Source of the DNA: Dysgonamonadaceae bacterium
GTDB taxonomy: Bacteria > Bacteroidota > Bacteroidia > Bacteroidales > Azobacteroidaceae
DNA length: 22,453 nucleotides
NCBI GenBank assembly: GCA_031276105.1
Contig: JAISNS010000171.1
Span: 1-22,453, forward strand
Reading direction: 5' to 3'
Shown in pieces: positions 4,391 to 13,295 of the stretch. The first letter of the stretch is position 1. Every line of letters begins with the position of its first letter. Below the pieces are notes generated by a model that was not told where the DNA came from, made no database searches, and saw nothing but the letters and a program-made list of their open reading frames with translations. The position numbers and the translations under genes are program-made.

Positions 4391-6109
4391 ATGAAAATCA
4401 CGAAAATGAAAAACAATACAATCGTCATTCCGGAATTTGCCCGTCATTTCCTGATGACATCCATACTCCTATGCTGTCTGGCTCTGTTGCCGGCCTGCGA
4501 CAGCTACCTCGATCGCGCTCCCGAACTGCCGTTAGACGACGAGGTCGTTTTTACGCTCTTTTCACATGCGGAACGTTTCCACAACGACTTATACGCCAAT
4601 CTCCAAGCGCGTTTTAATGCGGTAGGCGATTATCAGCCGGTACCGATGTCGTCCGCCTCCGACGAATCGGACTCGCCTTTAGGATCACACGGCACGCAAA
4701 ACTTCAATATGGGCAATTACAACGGCAACGACGCCGATCTCGGCAATTACTACGGCGGCATCCGCAAAGTCAATATTTTCCTAAGCAAAACGGAAATTAT
4801 TCCTTTCCCCTCGGAAACAAAGAAAAAACAGATGCTGGGCGAAGCTTATTTCCTGAGAGCTTTTTATTTCAATGAAATCATCAAACGCTTCGGCGGAATG
4901 CCCATTTTGGACGAAAGCAAAATCCTCCTGCCGGGCGACGACCTGAATCTCCCCCGAAATTCCTATAAAGACTGCGTCGATTTTATCGGAGAAGATTTGA
5001 AAAAAGCCATTCAAATGCTGCCAGTTACGCTTCCCGAAACGGAATACGGACGCGCCACAAAAGGGGCGGCAATGGCCTTGAAAGCCAGGATATTGCTGTT
5101 TGCAGCCAGTCCGTTGTGGCAAAAAGAAATGAACGAAGATTTATGGCAACAAGCCGCCGAAGCGGCCCAAGCCGTCATCGACCTGAAAGACGAAAACGGA
5201 GTAAAAGTGTACGAACTCTATTCGACCGGCGCCGGCGCCGGCGACTATGAGCAACTCTTTTTCAAACGGCGCGAAAACGGCAACAAAGAAATCATCTTCT
5301 ACAAACACGCTTCTCCCGCCGGTTTCAACAGCAACGAAATTAAAGTCTGGTCGCCCTCCGGCGGTAAGTTTGGAGGCGATGGCGCGGTGTGTCCCACGCA
5401 AAACTTCGTCAATCTGTTCGAAATGGCCAACGGCAAATTCATCACGGAAATCAATTCCGGTTACAACAAGCAAAATCCATTCGTCAATCGCGACCCGCGT
5501 TTTTACAAAACCATCCTCTACAACGGTTGCCAATGGCAAGGCGAAACGCTCGACTTAACCTACAATTCCAATAAAGATTTGAGCGGAACGCATCGCCAAA
5601 CGAAAGAGAATACGCGCACCGGTTACTTTGTCCGCAAATATTTGCCCGAAGACGTCAAATACAACACCACCAACACCGCCTATCACAACTGGATTTATTT
5701 CCGGCTGGCTGAGATGTACTTAAACTATGCCGAAGCGCTCAACGAAACGCTTGCCGTTCCTTCCCAAGAAGTTTACGATGCCGTCAATGCCGTTCGATCG
5801 CGTTCGGGCGTCGCCGGTTTACCGGCCAACTTAAGCAAAGACCAAATGAGAGAACGCATTTGGAACGAACGAGCCATCGAATTATCGTTTGAAGAACACC
5901 GCTGGTGGGACGCCCGGCGCTGGGAAAAAGCGGTCGACTGGTTTGGAGGAGCCATGTACGAAATGGAAATCACCAAAGAAAACGGAAAGCTGATTTATGC
6001 CGAAAAACCGTTTTATACCCGCATTTACCGTTCGTACATGGATTTATATCCGATACCCACCGACGAAATACGTAAAAATCCGCTGTATTATCAAAATCCC
6101 GGATGGTAA
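4391..6109 (+). CDS. susD-like: SusD/RagB-family glycan-binding lipoprotein (SusD1)
   Basis: The 572-residue protein begins directly at the stop of SusC1 (TAA then ATG). A second ATG at 4406 (MKNNT) would give an equally good lipoprotein signal. The signal ends LLPAC with C36 as lipid site, followed by DSYLDRAPELPLDDE, the standard SusD opening. Family hallmarks follow: NYYGGIRKVNIFL, the helix GEAYFLRAFYFNEIIKRFGGMP, ALKARILLFAASPLW, IYFRLAEMYLNYAEALNE, ERAIELSFEEHRWWDARRW, and the end YPIPTDEIRKNPLYYQNPGW. SusD proteins sit on the outer surface as a hinged lid over their SusC and capture glycan. The fusion-like spacing supports obligate pairing with SusC1. A GC-rich run around 5226-5243 is simply codons for alternating Gly and Ala. 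Confidence 0.95.
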   Translation: MKITKMKNNTIVIPEFARHFLMTSILLCCLALLPACDSYLDRAPELPLDDEVVFTLFSHAERFHNDLYANLQARFNAVGDYQPVPMSSASDESDSPLGSHGTQNFNMGNYNGNDADLGNYYGGIRKVNIFLSKTEIIPFPSETKKKQMLGEAYFLRAFYFNEIIKRFGGMPILDESKILLPGDDLNLPRNSYKDCVDFIGEDLKKAIQMLPVTLPETEYGRATKGAAMALKARILLFAASPLWQKEMNEDLWQQAAEAAQAVIDLKDENGVKVYELYSTGAGAGDYEQLFFKRRENGNKEIIFYKHASPAGFNSNEIKVWSPSGGKFGGDGAVCPTQNFVNLFEMANGKFITEINSGYNKQNPFVNRDPRFYKTILYNGCQWQGETLDLTYNSNKDLSGTHRQTKENTRTGYFVRKYLPEDVKYNTTNTAYHNWIYFRLAEMYLNYAEALNETLAVPSQEVYDAVNAVRSRSGVAGLPANLSKDQMRERIWNERAIELSFEEHRWWDARRWEKAVDWFGGAMYEMEITKENGKLIYAEKPFYTRIYRSYMDLYPIPTDEIRKNPLYYQNPGW

Positions 6110-6143
6110 ATCAATGACAAATCAAAAAACAGGAAATACAATT

Positions 6144-9011
6144 ATGAAACAGATAGATTTTTTTAGGAGTAAACGAGTAAACAAGTTGACGAGTAAACAA
6201 GTTTCCTTGTCACTTACCACTCGTTTACTTGTTTACTCGTCAACTTGTTTCCTCGTTTACTGCTTCCCCGCTTTTCAGCCGGTTGCAGCGCAAACGAACG
6301 ATACGCTTCCGGCGGAAAAACGCTACGAGGTTGCTTATGGCGTCCGCACGAAAACGGAATTAACATCGGCCATTTCCGTCGTCGGAGGCGAAGAACTCGC
6401 CCGAACGCCGGTTTCAATCCTGAACGACGCCGTACAAGGCAAAGTAAGCGGACTGACCGCCATCCGAACTACCGGCAGCGAGCCGGGATGGACAACCACC
6501 CAGTTTCTGGTACGGGGAATAGGCACTTTCGGCAACGGTCAAACCCCTTTATACATGGTGGATAATGTGGAACGAAACATCACGCAGTTAGACCCCGAAG
6601 AAATTCAATCCTTTACCGTATTGAAAGACGCTGCGGCTACCGTCGCCTACGGAATGAGGGCTGCCAACGGAGTTATTAACGTAACCACTAAAAGAGGATT
6701 TGCCGGTAAAACCCAAATATCATTCAAGGCGCAAGCCGGAATGCAACAGCCGACACGCTTGCCGCAATACTTAAATTCGCAAGAATACGTCCGATACCGC
6801 AATATTGCTCTGGTTAACGACGGATTGCCCATCCCGACCGACCCGCGTTACAATCCCGATAATTACAACGGAACGCAAGATCCTTATCTCTATCCGAATA
6901 CGGATTGGTACGACGAATTTTTGAAAAACGCTTCTCCGCAACAGATTTACAAACTTTCGATCGCCGGAGGGTCGGAACAGGCGCGTTATTTCGTTTTGCT
7001 GGGCGTAACCGACCAACAGGGGTTGTTCCGATTCGGAAATGAAAATTCCGGTTACTCAACTAATTACGATTATACCCGTTACAATGTCCGTTCCAATGTA
7101 GATGTCGATATTACGAAATACCTTTCCGTTTCGCTTGATTTGGCAGGACGCTTGGAAACCAAAGTAGCGCCGAACACTTCCTCTTCCGCTATTTTTACGG
7201 CATTGTCGCAATTCCCGCCGACAATGCCGGTCAAAAACAGGGACGGCTCAATTGCCGGAACCTCCGTTTACACCGGCAATCCCTACGGGCTGATAGCGAA
7301 ATCCGGTTACGGCAACTACATGAATCGTTACCTGCAAGGCAATGTGACCCTCAATCAAAAACTGGATTTTTGGCTCAAAGGGCTTTCTGTCAATGCCTTG
7401 TTTGCTTTCGATAACTACAAGAATTACGATCGGGGCAAAGACAGAACCTTTGCCGTTTACAGCGAAAATACGGACGGAAGCTACACGAAACTGGGAGAAG
7501 ATTCGGAAGTCGGCACGAATTACAGTACTTGGAGTAGCGATTTTTACCTCTTGCTCTCCGGATTTGCCGGATTAAGTTATGTGAATACGTTCGATCAACA
7601 CAGCCTCGGAATTGACGTAAAATACCTGCAATCGCAACGAAACGTTCCGGACAACGAATTGGATTACAAGAATCAGGGCGCTTTCGGACGGATTACTTAC
7701 GGTTTCGATAAACGCTACATCGTCGAATGGGGCTGGTCGTACAGCGGTTCCGAAAATTTCACGGGAGAACGGCGTTTCGACTTTTATCCCGTCGGATCGT
7801 TGGCTTGGGTGGTTTCCAACGAACGGTTTTGGGGAAACCGGTTTTCCATTGATTTCCTGAAACTCAGGGGATCGTATGGTTTGACCGGCAATTCCGACGT
7901 CGGCATCGGACGTTTTCCTTACGAATCGCAATACACGCGCGGCGGCGGATACGTTTTCGGTTCCGGCTTCAGCGATTCGGACGGCTCGCAGGAAGGACGT
8001 CCGGGCAATCCGTACATCGGGGCGGAACACTCGCTCAACGCCAATATCGGCTTAGACGTCGAATGGTCTAACGGCTTGTTTGTGTTGAGCGCCGACGTTT
8101 TCCGCAACGACCGCAAGCAAATCATCACGACCCGCGGCAATACGTTTCCCGGCATTGCCGGCCAAAGCTTGCCTTACGAAAATATCGGATCGGTATTGAA
8201 TCGCGGATTTGAAGTCTCGCTGACGCATCGCAACCAAATCCGCGATTTCGCTTATTACGGGCAAGCCAACCTCTCGTATGCGGCCGACAAAATTACCTAT
8301 ACCGACGAAGTGTCCGGCATAGAACCCTGGCTTTCGTCCATCGGACGTTCCGTCTATCAACAATGGGGCTTGCAATCCGCCGGATTTTTCAACAGTCAGG
8401 AAGAAATAGACGGCTGGGCAAAATCGACTTACGGCGTGGTAAAACCGGGTGACGTCAAATACATCGACCAAAACAACGACCAAATCATCAATGACGACGA
8501 TCGCGTGCCACTGGGAAAACCCTCCATTCCCCAATGGAATTTCGGTTTCCTTTTCGGTTGCAGCTACAAAAATCTGGATTTCAATTTCGCGTTGACCGGC
8601 GTTGCCAATCGCTCAATATTCATCAGCAACAATGTGCTTTGGGGAATGCAGAACAACAATAAAATTACGGCGACCGCCCGCGACGCTTGGCAACAAGGCG
8701 TGAACGAAACGTCGGCGCTTTATCCGCGTTTAACGACGGAAGCAAACAACCATAATTATCGCGAATCCGATATTTGGCAATTCAGCGGCAACTACATCCG
8801 CCTGCAAAACGTGGAAATCGGTTACCGTTTGCCGGAAAACCTGTTGCAAAAAGTACATATTGCCGGATGCCGTTTCTTTGTAAACGGATTTAATCTCTTG
8901 TCGTTCGACCAGTTGAAAAAATTCAACCTGAGCGCCGAGTATCCCGATGCCGGCGTAACGGCTTATCCCGAAACGCGCGTGTTTAATATTGGTATTAATC
9001 TAAAATTTTGA
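6144..9011 (+). CDS. susC-like: SusC/RagA-family TonB-dependent transporter lacking the N-terminal regulatory-like domain (SusC2)
   Basis: I start at ATG 6144 (955 residues) rather than in-frame starts at 5997 (inside SusD1) or 6114. The sequence around 6144 matches the leader of SusD2 at 9010-9036, and a signal peptide follows. The signal (about 1-49, cleavage near VAA|Q) is unusually long and is encoded by the 6168-6261 inverted repeat: basic SKRVNKLTSKQV then hydrophobic RLLVYSSTCFLVYC. The mature protein begins almost at the TonB-box-like YEVAYGV (61-67), so the carboxypeptidase-regulatory-like domain of SusC1 is absent. Plug signatures follow (VRGIGTFGNG, YMVDNVERN, FTVLKDAAATVAYGMRAANG), then a long barrel ending INLKF. 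It should pair with SusD2, whose start lies 9 bp downstream. Family certain; substrate unknown. Confidence 0.94.
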   Translation: MKQIDFFRSKRVNKLTSKQVSLSLTTRLLVYSSTCFLVYCFPAFQPVAAQTNDTLPAEKRYEVAYGVRTKTELTSAISVVGGEELARTPVSILNDAVQGKVSGLTAIRTTGSEPGWTTTQFLVRGIGTFGNGQTPLYMVDNVERNITQLDPEEIQSFTVLKDAAATVAYGMRAANGVINVTTKRGFAGKTQISFKAQAGMQQPTRLPQYLNSQEYVRYRNIALVNDGLPIPTDPRYNPDNYNGTQDPYLYPNTDWYDEFLKNASPQQIYKLSIAGGSEQARYFVLLGVTDQQGLFRFGNENSGYSTNYDYTRYNVRSNVDVDITKYLSVSLDLAGRLETKVAPNTSSSAIFTALSQFPPTMPVKNRDGSIAGTSVYTGNPYGLIAKSGYGNYMNRYLQGNVTLNQKLDFWLKGLSVNALFAFDNYKNYDRGKDRTFAVYSENTDGSYTKLGEDSEVGTNYSTWSSDFYLLLSGFAGLSYVNTFDQHSLGIDVKYLQSQRNVPDNELDYKNQGAFGRITYGFDKRYIVEWGWSYSGSENFTGERRFDFYPVGSLAWVVSNERFWGNRFSIDFLKLRGSYGLTGNSDVGIGRFPYESQYTRGGGYVFGSGFSDSDGSQEGRPGNPYIGAEHSLNANIGLDVEWSNGLFVLSADVFRNDRKQIITTRGNTFPGIAGQSLPYENIGSVLNRGFEVSLTHRNQIRDFAYYGQANLSYAADKITYTDEVSGIEPWLSSIGRSVYQQWGLQSAGFFNSQEEIDGWAKSTYGVVKPGDVKYIDQNNDQIINDDDRVPLGKPSIPQWNFGFLFGCSYKNLDFNFALTGVANRSIFISNNVLWGMQNNNKITATARDAWQQGVNETSALYPRLTTEANNHNYRESDIWQFSGNYIRLQNVEIGYRLPENLLQKVHIAGCRFFVNGFNLLSFDQLKKFNLSAEYPDAGVTAYPETRVFNIGINLKF
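6168..6261. repeat. 35-bp near-perfect inverted repeat inside the SusC2 signal-peptide codons
   Basis: The left arm, 6168-6202, is built from 8-bp units (AGTAAACG, AGTAAACA, AGTTGACG, AGTAAACA). It is complementary to 6227-6261 with one mismatch (C at 6251 where A is expected), with a 24-base spacer. The whole element is in frame: the left arm gives residues 9-20, the spacer and right arm give 21-40. Bases 6168-6198 are identical to 10828-10858. Confidence 0.92.
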
Positions 9012-9020
9012 AATACAATC

Positions 9021-10745
9021 ATGAAACAGATATATTTTTTAATAAGTAAACGAGTTAACGAGTTAACGAGTAAACAAGTTTTCGCGTCATTCGTCACTTG
9101 CCACTTGTCACTCGCTTGTCTCCTCTTTTCCTGCTCCGACTACTTGGACAAAGATTCGCGAACAGACGTCAACCTGAGTTACGAACAAGTGTTCAAAGAC
9201 CCGCACTTGGCGCCCGGATTTTTGAACAATGCCTACACGAATCTGCCCGACGGATTCAACCGCGTGGGTGCGGCGTTACTGGCTTCCGCCTGCGACGAAG
9301 CCGAACATTCCGATGCCGGATCGGGAATCCGCCTCTTTAACAACAACTCCATTTCGGCTTCGTACAATCCCGACGATGTGTGGAACGATATGTACGCCGG
9401 CATCCGCAAGTGCAACATCTTCCTGAAAGAATTAGACGGTTTGATTGCCGAATCAAACAGCATACCGGAAGCCGACCGTCCTAATTATCGCGGACAGGCC
9501 TTGTTTTTGCGGGCTTTCTACCATTTTGAGTTATTGAAACGCTATCAAAATATCATTTATGTCGATACGGTAATCGGTCCGTTCAACGAAGACGAAGCGT
9601 TTGCTTTTCCGCAAGTGACTTTTCACGAAGCGGTTAACCGGATTACCACCGATTGCGATTCGGCTCAAGCATTGTTGCCGAACAAAACGACCGAAGATGC
9701 CACGAAAGGCCGTCCCGCCAAGTCCGCTCCGATGGCGCTGAAAGCTCGTATGCTACTCTACGCGGCCAGTCCGCTGAACAATCCCTGGAATGATAAAAGT
9801 TTGTGGGAAAAAGCAGAAAAAGCCGCGCAGGAAATTTACGACAACAAGAGCGTTTTGGGCATCGGATTAATGTCGAAAGGCAGTTACAGTAAAATTTTTA
9901 CCGAACCCTACAATTCCGAAATCATTTTTGCTACGCAGGCCTCCAACCGCAACGATATTGAAGCGGCCAATTTCCCAATCAGTTATCAGGGAAACGGTTA
10001 TGCAAATCCGTCGCAAGATTTGGTCGACGATTACGTCATGAATGCAACGGCATACAATAATTCGATGAACGGCTACGACCCTGCAAATCCCTACGACAAA
10101 AGGGAAGACCGTTTTGCCGCTACCATTCTTTACAATACCGCTATGTTCAAAGAGGCTCCGGTAGAAACTTTTGTCGGCGGAAAAGACGGCTTGTTCGCCA
10201 CCTCTACGGCAACGAAAACGGGCTATTACCTGCGGAAATTTCTCGTCCCGTCCATCAGTCTGGAGAAAAATGAAACGGCGCGGCGTCCTTGGATATTTTT
10301 CCGCTATGCCGAAGTCATTCTCAACTACGCCGAAGCACGCAACGAAGTGTTGGACGAACCCGACGCTACCGTTTACAAGTTGCTGAATGAGATTCGTTTG
10401 CGGGCAGGAGTGCGAAACAATCTTTCGGCTTCGCAACTCGGCGCCAGCGCTTGGTCGAAAAAAGAGGAAATCCGCAACTATATCAAGCACGAACGCCGGA
10501 TAGAATTGGCATTTGAAGAACATCGCTTCTGGGATTTGCGCCGCTGGAAAGATGCGGAAACCGTATTGAACAAACCGCTCAAAGGAGTTTCCATCGAAAA
10601 AACCGAAAACGGTTTTACTTATACGCCTTTCGACGCCGCTCAGCGTACATTCGATCCGAAATTCTACTGGTATCCGATTCCTCGCGCCGAAATATTGAAA
10701 TACAAAAGCAAAGGAATCGAACTGATGCAAAATCCGGGCTGGTAA
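9021..10745 (+). CDS. susD-like: SusD/RagB-family glycan-binding lipoprotein (SusD2)
   Basis: The 574-residue protein starts 9 bp after SusC2. The lipoprotein signal ends LLFSC with C38 as lipid site, followed by SDYLDKDSRTDVNLSYEQVF, a normal SusD opening. The signal is repeat-derived, with SKRVNELTSKQV at 9-20 and FVTCHLSLAC further on. Family hallmarks: DMYAGIRKCNIFL, GQALFLRAFYHFELLKRYQ, ALKARMLLYAASPLNNPWN, FFRYAEVILNYAEARNE, ERRIELAFEEHRFWDLRRW, and the end WYPIPRAEIL ... MQNPGW. It should form the surface lid of SusC2. Divergence from SusD1 in the middle suggests the two pairs bind different oligosaccharides, perhaps different fragments of one polymer; that is inference. Confidence 0.95.
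   Translation: MKQIYFLISKRVNELTSKQVFASFVTCHLSLACLLFSCSDYLDKDSRTDVNLSYEQVFKDPHLAPGFLNNAYTNLPDGFNRVGAALLASACDEAEHSDAGSGIRLFNNNSISASYNPDDVWNDMYAGIRKCNIFLKELDGLIAESNSIPEADRPNYRGQALFLRAFYHFELLKRYQNIIYVDTVIGPFNEDEAFAFPQVTFHEAVNRITTDCDSAQALLPNKTTEDATKGRPAKSAPMALKARMLLYAASPLNNPWNDKSLWEKAEKAAQEIYDNKSVLGIGLMSKGSYSKIFTEPYNSEIIFATQASNRNDIEAANFPISYQGNGYANPSQDLVDDYVMNATAYNNSMNGYDPANPYDKREDRFAATILYNTAMFKEAPVETFVGGKDGLFATSTATKTGYYLRKFLVPSISLEKNETARRPWIFFRYAEVILNYAEARNEVLDEPDATVYKLLNEIRLRAGVRNNLSASQLGASAWSKKEEIRNYIKHERRIELAFEEHRFWDLRRWKDAETVLNKPLKGVSIEKTENGFTYTPFDAAQRTFDPKFYWYPIPRAEILKYKSKGIELMQNPGW
9045..9116. repeat. Signal-peptide-embedded repeat in SusD2
   Basis: The left part, 9045-9080, has 7- and 8-bp units (AGTAAACG, AGTTAACG, AGTTAACG, AGTAAACA). 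The right part, about 9089-9116, is heptameric in the opposite sense (TCGTCAC, TTGCCAC, TTGTCAC, TCGCTTG). It has the same layout and reading frame as the SusC2 element, but the right part uses the TTGTCAC class instead of the GTTTACTC class, so the two parts pair only imperfectly. Confidence 0.88.
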
Positions 10746-10755
10746 TAAGCGATAA

Positions 10756-10790
10756 GAGTTATGAGTTATGAGTTATGAGTTATGAGTTAT
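10756..10790. repeat. Five perfect tandem copies of GAGTTAT
   Basis: The array fills the middle of the 61-bp gap between SusD2 and the next lipoprotein gene, with five identical 7-bp units and no interruptions. It is the RTTATGA class in another register and is the only perfectly homogeneous array in the window. Slippage during replication could change copy number. Confidence 0.97.
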
Positions 10791-10806
10791 TAAATTTATT
10801 TACAAC

Positions 10807-11319
10807 ATGAAACATTTATTTTATTTAAGTAAACGAGTAAACAAGTTGACGAGTAAACTTGCCTTGTCACTCGTCACCTGTCACTTGTCACTGATTTTTT
10901 CGTTGGCCTTTTCCGCTTGCGAAACGGCAGAAAACATCAGTTTTGGAATGGATCACGAAACGCCGTCCGGAATGGCCGTAACGGATTCTTTACAAGTGCA
11001 TCCCGGACAAACAGTTGATATAAAAATAGCGGTTTCCGATAATGCCGGATTGAGCAAAGTCGTCTTTTCCTACGGCGAGTGGATGATTCGAGAATCTGTT
11101 TCGTTGGCGGAATTGAATTATCCGCAGTCGTACACTTTCGAAACGTCGATCGTCATTCCCGAAGACGCAATCACAGCATGGGAAGAAGACGTGATTTTGA
11201 ACGATGGCAGCAAGAAAACAATCGTGCAACACTATCACCAATTGCTGTTGGAAGCAACCGACAGAAATATGAATGTGAAAGATATACCGGTTTATATTCG
11301 AGTGACGAGTGACAAGTAA
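10807..11319 (+). CDS. Small PUL-associated lipoprotein, probable Ig-like fold
   Basis: The gene encodes 170 residues. Its lipoprotein signal ends LAFSAC with C38 as lipid site, followed by ETAENISF. The signal carries the repeat peptide SKRVNKLTSKLA (8-19) and LVTCHLSL. The mature part (about 130 residues) is strand-rich: QVHPGQTVDIKIAVSDNAGLSKVVFSYGEW, then SYTFETSIVIPEDA and LLLEATDRNMNVKDIPVYI. The 'D..GL..V.f' pattern and closing 'EATD..MNV' strand recall Ig-like domains in bacterial surface proteins and DUF4625-type lipoproteins; I am unsure of the exact family. Sitting right after SusD2, it has the usual place of a third surface glycan-binding lipoprotein. Its last residues (RVTSDK) and stop codon lie within a repeat array at 11299-11341, so the native C-terminus may have been changed. 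Confidence 0.75.
   Translation: MKHLFYLSKRVNKLTSKLALSLVTCHLSLIFSLAFSACETAENISFGMDHETPSGMAVTDSLQVHPGQTVDIKIAVSDNAGLSKVVFSYGEWMIRESVSLAELNYPQSYTFETSIVIPEDAITAWEEDVILNDGSKKTIVQHYHQLLLEATDRNMNVKDIPVYIRVTSDK
10828..10892. repeat. Signal-peptide-embedded repeat in the Ig-like lipoprotein gene
   Basis: Bases 10828-10858 are identical to 6168-6198 (31 bases). They are followed by heptamers TTGTCAC, TCGTCAC, CTGTCAC, TTGTCAC (about 10864-10891). The left part is in the same frame as in SusC2 and SusD2 and begins at codon 8. Confidence 0.9.
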
Positions 11320-11341
11320 CGAGTGACAAGTTTACTCGTTT
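11299..11341. repeat. GTGACRA heptamer array covering the end and stop codon of the Ig-like lipoprotein gene
   Basis: The units read CGAGTGA, CGAGTGA, CAAGTAA, CGAGTGA, CAAG, then TTTACTCGTTT in the opposite sense. The TAA stop at 11317-11319 is part of the third unit. Bases 11307-11331 are complementary at 22 of 25 positions to 11419-11443, so the array can pair across the GH30 start codon. Confidence 0.88.
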
Positions 11342-11372
11342 GATTATCAATAATAAAACAACAAATTTTCGT

Positions 11373-13295
11373 ATGAAACATTCAAACACCTACAACAAAG
11401 GCTCACACCCCCCTCTCTACTCGTCACTTGTCACTTGTCACTCTCATTTGTCACTCGTTTACTTGTTTACTTGTTTACTCGTCAACTCGTTTACCGGAAA
11501 TGCGCAGTCGTATGTTCCGATCAATATTGACGCGGCAACGAGTTACCAAACCATCGTTGGCTTTGCCGCGTCCGATTGTTGGACAGGTAATTATGTCGGA
11601 AAATATTGGAGTGAAACACCCAAAAATACGATAGCGAAATACCTGTTCAGTCAAAATTTCAAGACAGACGGCAGTCCCGAAGGCATCGGCTTGTCGATGT
11701 GGCGCGTCAATCTGGGCGCCGGAACGGTGGAACAGGGCGACGACAGCGGCATAGAAGATATTTCCCGCCGGGCGGAATGTTTTCTCGACGCTTCGGGCGC
11801 TTACGACTGGACAAAACAAGCCGGTCAACAATGGTTTATGCAAAAAGCGAAAGAATACGGCTGCGAATCGTTCGTGCTGTTTTCCAATTCGCCGCCAGTC
11901 AGTTACACGCGCAACGGAAAAGCTTATTCCAACGGCGACGGAAAAACAAATTTGCAAGCCGATAAATACGACGACTTTGCCGGTTTTATGACTGAGGTAC
12001 TCGCGCATTTCAAAGAGGAAGGATTTGATTTCCGCTATATTAGCCCGGTCAACGAGCCTCAATGGGATTGGAAAGACCCCTCGCAAGAAGGATCGCCTTG
12101 GCAAAACGAAGAAATCAAAACTTTAGTGGTTGAATTGGATAAATCGTTACAGGAAAAAGAATTGGAAACTAAAATACTGCTTTCGGAAGCCGGACAATGG
12201 GATCGTTTATACCAAACCAACGGCAGGGCTTCCAACCAGATTTACCGCCTTTTCGACCCCAACAGTTCCGATTATGTCGGGAATTTGCCTTCGGTAGCGC
12301 CGGTTATCGCCGGTCACAGTTATTGGACGCACGACACGAACAGTCAGCTCATTAACGTTCGGAAAAATGTAAAAACGAATGCGAAAAAATACAACCTCGA
12401 CGTTTTTCAAACCGAGTGGAGTATGTTGTCCGGCGGGGAAGGCATTCCCGCTATTGAGGAGGCTTCGTACATGGACATCGCCCTGTTGATGGCTAAAATC
12501 ATTCATTCCGATTTGGCTTTTGCCGATGTAACTTCCTGGTCTTACTGGACTTCAATGGATATGGAACGCTGGGGACACAAAAACCGCTTTTTGCTGGTTT
12601 CGCTTTCGCCCAACAATCCTTACAACGCCATTACGCAATCGAGTACCGTTGCCGACCGATCTACCCTTTGGGCGTTAGGCAATTACAGTTTCTTCATTCG
12701 TCCCGGTTACAAGCGGATTCAGCTCAACGGCGCGAACGATCCGGCCGCTTTGATGGGAACCGCTTACTTGTCGCCCGACACATCCAACGTGGTAGCCGTG
12801 TACGTCAATATGAGTTCGGAAGCGCAAAAGATACGCACAACTTTTTCAAACACAGGACGCTACCGGGCAACGACCAACAAAATGTACATTACCGGTTCGA
12901 GTTACAACCTGAAAAAATACGGCAGCGCCTCGTCGGAAAGCTACGCCGAAGACCGCGAACTGACTATCCCCGCCCGTTCGGTAGCAACGGTCGTTTACTC
13001 GATGGAAGACCAGGGCGACACGGACATTCCGGCTTTGGAAAAATCCGCTTTCCGCCTTTATCCCAATCCCCTTTCGCCGGGCGAAAGCATCCTGATTGAT
13101 TTGCCGGAAACAGCAAAAGGAAATCTTACGCTATCACTTTATTCCACGCAGGGACACTTGGTTTATAGCGGGAATAAAATGATTGAAGAAACGGAAAAAA
13201 GGTTAACTTTACCGCTTAATTTGCCGAAAGGTATTTATCTCCTGAAAATACAATCGGGAAAAAATAATTATCAAGTAAAATTATTAGTAATGTAA
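11373..13295 (+). CDS. GH30-family glycoside hydrolase with T9SS sorting domain; likely endo-beta-1,6-galactanase type
   Basis: I chose ATG 11373 (640 residues) over 11340, because MKHSNTYNKG precedes the signal peptide. The signal (1-44, cleavage near GNA|Q) is largely repeat-encoded (SLVTCHSHLSLVYLFTCLLV). The catalytic domain, about 48-545, opens with ATSYQTIVGFAASDCW, like GH30 (clan GH-A). ISPVNEPQWDW supplies the acid/base E228 and VFQTEWSML the nucleophile E348. Motifs such as GIGLSMWRVNLGAGTVEQGD, RRAECFL and DWTKQAGQQWFMQKAKEYG look most like proteins annotated as endo-beta-1,6-galactanase (GH30 subfamily 5). That substrate call is from memory of the family and is not proven. A beta-sandwich side domain ends in RSVATVVYS (about 540). 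Residues about 560-640 (FRLYPNPLSPGES ... KGIYLLKIQSGKNNYQVKLLVM) are a type A T9SS sorting domain, so the enzyme should be at the cell surface. Confidence 0.88.
   Translation: MKHSNTYNKGSHPPLYSSLVTCHSHLSLVYLFTCLLVNSFTGNAQSYVPINIDAATSYQTIVGFAASDCWTGNYVGKYWSETPKNTIAKYLFSQNFKTDGSPEGIGLSMWRVNLGAGTVEQGDDSGIEDISRRAECFLDASGAYDWTKQAGQQWFMQKAKEYGCESFVLFSNSPPVSYTRNGKAYSNGDGKTNLQADKYDDFAGFMTEVLAHFKEEGFDFRYISPVNEPQWDWKDPSQEGSPWQNEEIKTLVVELDKSLQEKELETKILLSEAGQWDRLYQTNGRASNQIYRLFDPNSSDYVGNLPSVAPVIAGHSYWTHDTNSQLINVRKNVKTNAKKYNLDVFQTEWSMLSGGEGIPAIEEASYMDIALLMAKIIHSDLAFADVTSWSYWTSMDMERWGHKNRFLLVSLSPNNPYNAITQSSTVADRSTLWALGNYSFFIRPGYKRIQLNGANDPAALMGTAYLSPDTSNVVAVYVNMSSEAQKIRTTFSNTGRYRATTNKMYITGSSYNLKKYGSASSESYAEDRELTIPARSVATVVYSMEDQGDTDIPALEKSAFRLYPNPLSPGESILIDLPETAKGNLTLSLYSTQGHLVYSGNKMIEETEKRLTLPLNLPKGIYLLKIQSGKNNYQVKLLVM
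11418..11494. repeat. Signal-peptide-embedded repeat in the GH30 gene, opposite-sense arm only
   Basis: The array starts with heptamers (TCGTCAC, TTGTCAC, TTGTCAC, then TTGTCAC near 11449) and continues with octamers TCGTTTAC, TTGTTTAC, TTGTTTAC, TCGTCAAC, TCGTTTAC (about 11455-11494). It corresponds to the right arm of the SusC2 element, and the left basic arm is missing. It encodes most of the hydrophobic signal-peptide core. Confidence 0.88.

Follow-up and report, generated by a model that had tools for sequence, protein, structure and literature searches.

Octamer and heptamer repeats in the predicted signal peptides of exported proteins of a Dysgonamonadaceae bacterium

How do short tandem repeats come to encode much of the signal peptide in four genes of a single locus? 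The question is raised by a 22,453-nucleotide stretch from a Dysgonamonadaceae bacterium (GenBank assembly GCA_031276105.1, contig JAISNS010000171.1, positions 1 to 22,453; hereafter the window), in the genes of SusC2, SusD2, an immunoglobulin-like (Ig-like) lipoprotein and GH30. An earlier note on this DNA had placed repeats at the signal-peptide codons of all four and had proposed a mobile or recombining palindromic element, targeted to signal peptides and tolerated because it encodes a working export signal. The array positions confirm the placement: arrays of an octamer, GTWRACRA, and a heptamer, GTGACRA, occupy 6168-6261, 9045-9113, 10828-10893, 11300-11336 and 11420-11494, and Pfam recognizes the Plug (SusC2), SusD and GH30 domains downstream of the signals; the 170-residue Ig-like lipoprotein matched no Pfam family. 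We consider it probable that repeats akin to repetitive extragenic palindromic (REP) sequences or miniature inverted-repeat transposable elements (MITEs) persist in signal peptides as a discarded segment of the protein, and that their antisense arms at times become the signal. The features concerned are as follows.

6120 to 6167, plus strand: SusC2 5′ flank and first codons, 38 of 48 bases the same as at 8997-9044; ATG at 6144
6144 to 6293, plus strand: SusC2 signal-peptide region, MKQIDFFRSKRVNKLTSKQVSLSLTTRLLVYSSTCFLVYCFPAFQPVAAQ, with the Plug domain after it
6168 to 6202, plus strand: SusC2 sense octamer arm, in frame
6219 to 6261, minus strand: SusC2 antisense octamer arm, in frame, pairing with the sense arm (38-nt arms, 95%)
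8997 to 9044, plus strand: SusD2 5′ flank and first codons, resembling 6120-6167; ATG at 9021
9021 to 9134, plus strand: SusD2 signal peptide to the lipobox cysteine, MKQIYFLISKRVNELTSKQVFASFVTCHLSLACLLFSC; the repeat-free orthologue P0005 has MKQLYCLFVCLLALSC
9045 to 9079, plus strand: SusD2 sense octamer array
9091 to 9113, minus strand: SusD2 antisense heptamer array, VTCHLSL
10807 to 10920, plus strand: Ig-like lipoprotein signal peptide, MKHLFYLSKRVNKLTSKLALSLVTCHLSLIFSLAFSAC
10828 to 10858, plus strand: Ig-like lipoprotein sense octamer array, identical to the 31-mer at 6168
10863 to 10893, minus strand: Ig-like lipoprotein antisense heptamer array
11300 to 11336, plus strand: sense heptamers, then an antisense octamer, forming the Ig-like lipoprotein C-terminus (RVTSDK and stop) and the spacer after it
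11373 to 11507, plus strand: GH30 signal-peptide region, MKHSNTYNKGSHPPLYSSLVTCHSHLSLVYLFTCLLVNSFTGNAQ, its Q being the expected +1 residue
11420 to 11494, minus strand: GH30 antisense heptamer array, then antisense octamer array, in frame

Repeat arrays in the window and its genome

As the earlier note had said, the sense octamers read SKRVN[KE]LTSK from codon 9 in SusC2 and SusD2 and from codon 8 in the Ig-like lipoprotein, and the antisense heptamers read as a VTCHLSL-like peptide in SusD2, the Ig-like lipoprotein and GH30. The gene bodies of the window are free of arrays, as are the signals of SusC1, SusD1, GH2 and the first two small genes; the array at 11300-11336 sits at the 3′ end of the Ig-like lipoprotein gene. 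The resemblance between the SusC2 and SusD2 flanks was not reached by any of 20000 mononucleotide shuffles.

A genome search with the 31-base word at 6168, called for in the same note, gave 28 matches when at most 3 mismatches were allowed, each overlapping place being counted separately, and 0 for the reversed pattern; three-unit patterns gave 125 octamer and 91 heptamer matches, and their controls 0. Within the genome of the window (G000) we read 61 of the 370 contigs, that is, the window and 60 of the 369 others (50 chosen for listed hits and 10 arbitrarily), together 506,584 bases. These held 72 clusters of any size, and those that reached 19 nt, 67 in number, were sorted with a home-made gene caller: 48 were intergenic, 5 preceded the chosen start within an open frame, the first 50 codons held 7 in genes with a signal-peptide-like N-terminus and 1 in a further gene, at a contig edge, and the last 8 codons held 6. 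The bodies of coding sequences, which make up 73.8% of the bases (374 kb), held none of the 67 arrays against ∼49 expected by base share (calculated by hand), which upholds the claim that copies within genes are confined to N-terminal segments and gene ends. The claim that the element is targeted to signal peptides was not supported: most copies are intergenic, and none of the arrays read in three relatives (G016, G018 and G022) is in a signal peptide.

The repeat is dispersed, multi-copy and often palindromic. At many loci the arrays are paired opposite arms, some of them flanking a GCGCGAAGCG core; the arms are inverted repeats, yet they consist of degenerate tandem units without fixed ends, and tandem 7-nt units also occur close to start codons. 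Several contigs end near arrays, and the ends of G000 contigs C220 and C276 (L090 and L099) overlap by 119 nt; the repeats probably break up the assembly, so that the copy count is a lower bound.

Ten genes carry an in-frame array in the signal peptide: two SusC, two SusD, GH30, GH2, A2M, Y_Y_Y/Reg_prop and two lipoprotein-like genes without a family. To the four window genes the genome thus adds six more of exported or lipoprotein-like kinds. Among 20 further N-terminal candidates outside the window, 6 were in frame without a later ATG before the cleavage site, 13 had an ordinary ATG after the array, and the remaining one is a doubtful open reading frame at a contig edge (L086). In L067 a whole palindrome is in frame. 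Signal peptides cut by signal peptidase I in Bacteroidetes tend to have glutamine after the cleavage site, the Q-rule (PMC5837995; this and the other papers below are cited from excerpts of their text). Consistent with this rule, glutamine follows the site in five of the six non-lipoprotein signals (SusC2, GH30, the L069 SusC, L090 and L103; not L093, site chosen by eye), and the other four of the ten genes have a lipobox-like cysteine.

Reading frame, stop codons and repeat-free orthologues

Units of 7 and 8 nt run through all frames, and a pure array encodes one periodic peptide whatever its frame. The earlier note had argued from the shared reading frame; for the heptamers we rejected this argument, because 7-nt units give the same peptide in every frame automatically; the sense octamers do show real stop avoidance. 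Antisense units lack stops and are for the most part hydrophobic (LSLVTCH, SFTRLLVY, LFTCLLVY), with the exception of the GTTAAC unit, which yields a stop, and sense arrays run into stops. Over the first 240 nt, all ten genes have heptamer units in antisense and none has them in sense. In the five genes with sense octamers, phase-2 units are GTT[AG]AC in 5 of 5 cases and phase-1 units GTAAAC in 9 of 9, which are the stop-avoiding choices; as GTT units make up 38 of the 150 array units read as background, the probability of this avoidance is ∼8e-5 (by hand, and if the copies were independent, which related copies are not).

Comparison with repeat-free orthologues, also proposed in the earlier note, revealed ordinary signals followed by the same sequence in both SusD (P0005) and GH30 (P0122). 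The SusD P0005, 75% identical, has MKQLYCLFVCLLALSCSDYLDKDS where SusD2 has MKQIYFLI[SKRVNELTSKQVFASFVTCHLSLA]CLLFSCSDYLDKDS, so that by sequence comparison the repeat looks inserted into a pre-existing signal peptide. GH30 P0122 has a plain 20-residue signal before Q, and the window GH30 has 44 residues, largely built from repeat. The A2M of the relative G015, 65.7% identical, has an ordinary signal with an array just upstream. The proposal that repeats donate signal peptides is supported for GH30 and A2M, where a repeat-derived hydrophobic core stands in place of the ordinary one, and not for SusD2, where P0005 points to insertion.

Repeat-like stretches occupy the same slot in other SusD orthologues (LVYSLTCLLVYSSC, LSLVTCLL, FSILSFQFSIL and VIAGLTRNP..GGMTR); the last two we take to be repeat families. 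Such a stretch (VIAGLTRNP..GGMTR/NKGIAGQARNDK, GATTGCGGGTCAAGCCCGCAATGAC) was also seen in the signal peptides of the SusD orthologues P0004 and P0020 and of the G000 GH2 (L103, from 343). A protein search with the first 45 residues of SusD2 alone returned no matches. Database gene calls begin SusD2 at a TTG at codon 42 and GH30 at a TTG inside the array, missing the signal in both, and these internal starts are probably due to the repeat. In these families the database entries P0001, P0007, P0022, P0025 and P0121 start within or past the signal, which is absent from them.

A start-codon leader in a related genome

At the stringency used, octamer arrays were present in 17 of 77 relatives (18 of 78 with G000), mostly in small number; G015, G016, G018, G020, G022 and G035 were rich in them. 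In G015 we found a leader of ∼90 nt, composed of ATGAAACATTCATGTTTAACAAACACCCAAGAGCATGAAAATGAG, antisense octamers and CATTTTCGT, which has its own ATG and adjoins native ATGs. Its left end (up to 3 mismatches) occurs at 46 places in G015, at 2 in G000 (L093 and L103), at 1 in G020 and at none in G018 and G022. With 4 mismatches allowed, 54 G015 sites were obtained, of which 52 could be evaluated and 43 were open in frame into the next gene, open meaning 100 codons, or 50 up to the end of the available sequence; a cut-off of 5 mismatches gave 57 sites, 55 evaluable and 44 open. Among leaders longer or shorter than 90 nt, 19 of 27 were open (p 9e-5 against 1/3). The native N-terminus is signal-peptide-like at 30 of 31 in-frame sites, compared with 76 of 217 background genes, the exception being the second of two tandem leaders at L299. 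In support of the link between repeat and signal peptides drawn in the earlier note, a related cassette stands at the start codons of exported genes in G015; the interpretation in that note is, as a whole, partly supported.

The 25 distinct 90-nt leaders differ by 19 synonymous changes, 63 amino-acid-changing ones and 1 stop, against 19.8, 59.4 and 3.8 under a neutral null, so that stops fall below the null (p 0.04). Because synonymous changes are not in excess, the leader peptide appears to drift, with its frame kept. L241 is 9 nt short through two separate losses and still in frame, and in L240 and L244 the native ATG is ATA and the leader reads through it. Seven of ten G015 cargo proteins had Pfam families over the cut-off: TonB receptor, SusD, GH28, GH2, arabinofuranosidase, N-glycanase and propeller proteins with type IX secretion system tails; L296 and L308 had none, and L230 had sub-threshold matches only.

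Leaders were also seen in metagenome-assembled genomes labelled Prevotellaceae, Bacteroidales and Candidatus Symbiothrix (L300, L304, L309, L303), some with the same isolate codes as Dysgonamonadaceae genomes; either transfer or mis-binning would account for them. A decayed leader at L182:3374-3500, without an ATG and out of frame, precedes a gene that by eye starts like thymidylate synthase, a decay that fits expectation if cytosolic genes cannot retain the leader. Viral contigs held no leader; octamer arrays were present in 14 contigs labelled viral (L310-L323), one of which holds three, two of these close together and in opposite orientation.

Competing explanations and precedents

If repeats persist in signal peptides as a discarded segment, the arrays would belong to a small repeat of the REP/MITE kind, dispersed and in many cases palindromic; selection would purge copies from segments kept in the mature protein and would spare those in the signal peptide, since that segment is lost to signal peptidase. 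With their loose sequence requirements and their removal by cleavage, signal peptides would be akin to intergenic DNA for an open, hydrophobic element. Antisense arms of most unit types meet no stop in any of the three frames and are hydrophobic (LVYSFTR, LSLVTCH), and so could lengthen the hydrophobic core or take its place; the sense octamer arms would provide a basic segment (SKRVNKLTSK), kept only where the unit order dodges stops. Insertion (SusD2), replacement (GH30 and A2M) and leader addition (G015, where a ∼90-nt derivative that brings its own ATG lies in frame before dozens of exported genes) may be three outcomes of one process. We infer that copies move, that translation begins at the upstream ATG and that the proteins are exported and cleaved; recombination between repeats, as the means of movement, is a guess.

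Several points weigh against this reading. Signal-peptide-likeness was a Kyte-Doolittle cut-off on home-made gene calls; by automatic call there are 7 arrays in such N-termini, of which the one in L095 precedes a normal signal, and inspection by eye supplied four of the ten genes (L067 and the L069 SusD, uncounted as N-terminal, and L093 and L103, with arrays below 19 nt). The empty sites are known at the level of protein, not DNA. Among the stretches read in relatives, arrays in signal peptides numbered 0 of 21 in G016 and 0 of 20 in G022 (both hit-selected) and 0 of 4 in G018 (read blind). In G015, 9 of the 52 evaluable leaders are not open in frame, and among the 43 open ones L271 and L277 were covered over 57 codons only, with no signal seen, and L299 is counted twice; L291, L300 and L303 each have a leader that is closed by a stop ahead of the native ATG and so lies outside the protein. 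Copies may moreover share ancestry, which would make the p-values too small.

A mobile N-terminal cassette, consisting of a start codon, a leader and a frame-tolerant hydrophobic tandem repeat, may copy itself onto genes for exported proteins, to be translated and then removed by signal peptidase; such an element would be selfish, at home in the part of a protein that is thrown away, and would now and then turn into the signal itself, an idea that is tentative. We are doubtful of a related version, in which the spreading unit carries both start codon and leader, fuses precisely to the ATG of the following gene and is favored as a common N-terminus of exported genes. This version would explain why 44 of the 46 G015 leader starts begin with ATG (as does the search pattern, which favors such matches), why the right end adjoins the native ATG, the tandem leaders of L299, the 30 of 31 signal-peptide-like native N-termini, the location of both G000 leader matches in signal-peptide genes (L093 and L103) and the shared SusC2 and SusD2 flanks. 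However, the leader peptide shows no purifying selection on its sequence, tolerance alone explains the confinement to exported genes, and no transposase was identified. We rejected a REP-associated tyrosine transposase as the driver, since the presence of Y1_Tnp does not track array number: it is over the cut-off in 16 of 38 genomes; of those rich in arrays, G015, G016 and G018 lack it and G000, G020, G022 and G035 have it, and it occurs also in G004 and G005, which have no octamer matches.

The repeats could instead act as DNA or RNA (a 5′ regulatory element or a hairpin), with true starts downstream and the peptide incidental. That many arrays lie just upstream of an ATG, including the 13 of 20 candidates, that most G015 leaders precede an intact native signal, that the database starts of SusD2 and GH30 are TTG codons after or inside the array, and that SusC2 and L067 form strong hairpins would all agree with such a role. 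Yet the ten G000 genes have no ATG between array and cleavage site, the TTG start of SusD2 would drop its lipobox cysteine, frame and stops are constrained, and Rfam gave no match in 5900-11600. The hairpin is not general either (z -8.7 in SusC2, -0.25 in SusD2, -2.1 in the Ig-like lipoprotein, +2.0 in GH30), and these uneven scores led us to reject an RNA hairpin as the general cause; a DNA or RNA role is accordingly improbable. More improbable still is a contingency locus, in which slippage of 7- or 8-nt units after the start codon would toggle surface proteins. Tandem, frame-shifting arrays near the start codons of surface-protein genes would suit it, as would the 9 of 52 closed leaders, some with lengths indivisible by three (82, 89, 133 and 146 nt), but degenerate units and short signal-peptide arrays should limit slippage, and 48 of the 67 arrays are intergenic.

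The closest precedents are the Rickettsia palindromic elements (RPEs) and RU-2 of Yersinia. RPEs are reported in frame in 19 protein genes, many of them conserved; one of these is gmk, whose product retains activity despite its insert (PMC2229807). Compared by description, both RPEs and the present arrays would be small, many-copy palindromic repeats that are intergenic as well as in frame in protein genes and apparently tolerated; here, in contrast, the bodies of coding sequences are empty in the contigs read, in-frame copies are in signal peptides, and the arms consist of 7- and 8-nt tandem units. RU-2/YPAL encodes residues 1-30 of the predicted 41-residue signal peptide of YPO1552, whose homologues have unrelated signals (PMC2759123, Delihas 2007). 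As excerpted, that case concerns one main locus. The present repeats sit in ten genes of a partly read genome and in dozens of genes of a relative; they are kept out of gene bodies and have a leader derivative at start codons.

TAACTGA heptamer repeats of Beggiatoaceae, Cyanobacteria and Bacteroidetes are mostly intergenic and near start codons; one orientation is stop-rich, and the other can be read through as a periodic peptide (PMC4679880). The present arrays share tandem heptamers near start codons and this orientation logic; they differ in their unit, GTGACRA, and in the pairing of palindromic arms, which the excerpts do not give for TAACTGA repeats. The term signal peptide is absent from the main text of that paper. 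The extended signal peptide region (ESPR, PF13018) of autotransporters is an N-terminal extension of ∼25 residues before an ordinary signal peptide (PMC8151025). The G015 leader resembles it in position, but the ESPR peptide is conserved and the leader drifts; with no synonymous excess and 0 of the 10 scanned cargo proteins matching PF13018 at E<=0.001, we rejected the leader as a conserved functional extension of this type. Among the literature matches listed, from a search whose scope was other than preprints and most subscription journals, none named repeat-derived signal peptides in Bacteroidota.

Persistence in a discarded segment would give a simple rule testable in any genome, namely that repeats within genes live in the segments that a protein throws away, and a way in which non-coding repeats can remake signal peptides. 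It may also explain misplaced gene-caller starts in such genomes, as with the internal TTG starts of the window's SusD2 and GH30, which make exported enzymes look cytosolic. The bacterial family is known from termite guts (PMC11481507), and the names of homologues agree. Finally, a third tandem heptamer family (AATTATG/AGTTATG) is present between genes of the window at 173-206, 1278-1306 and 10759-10795.

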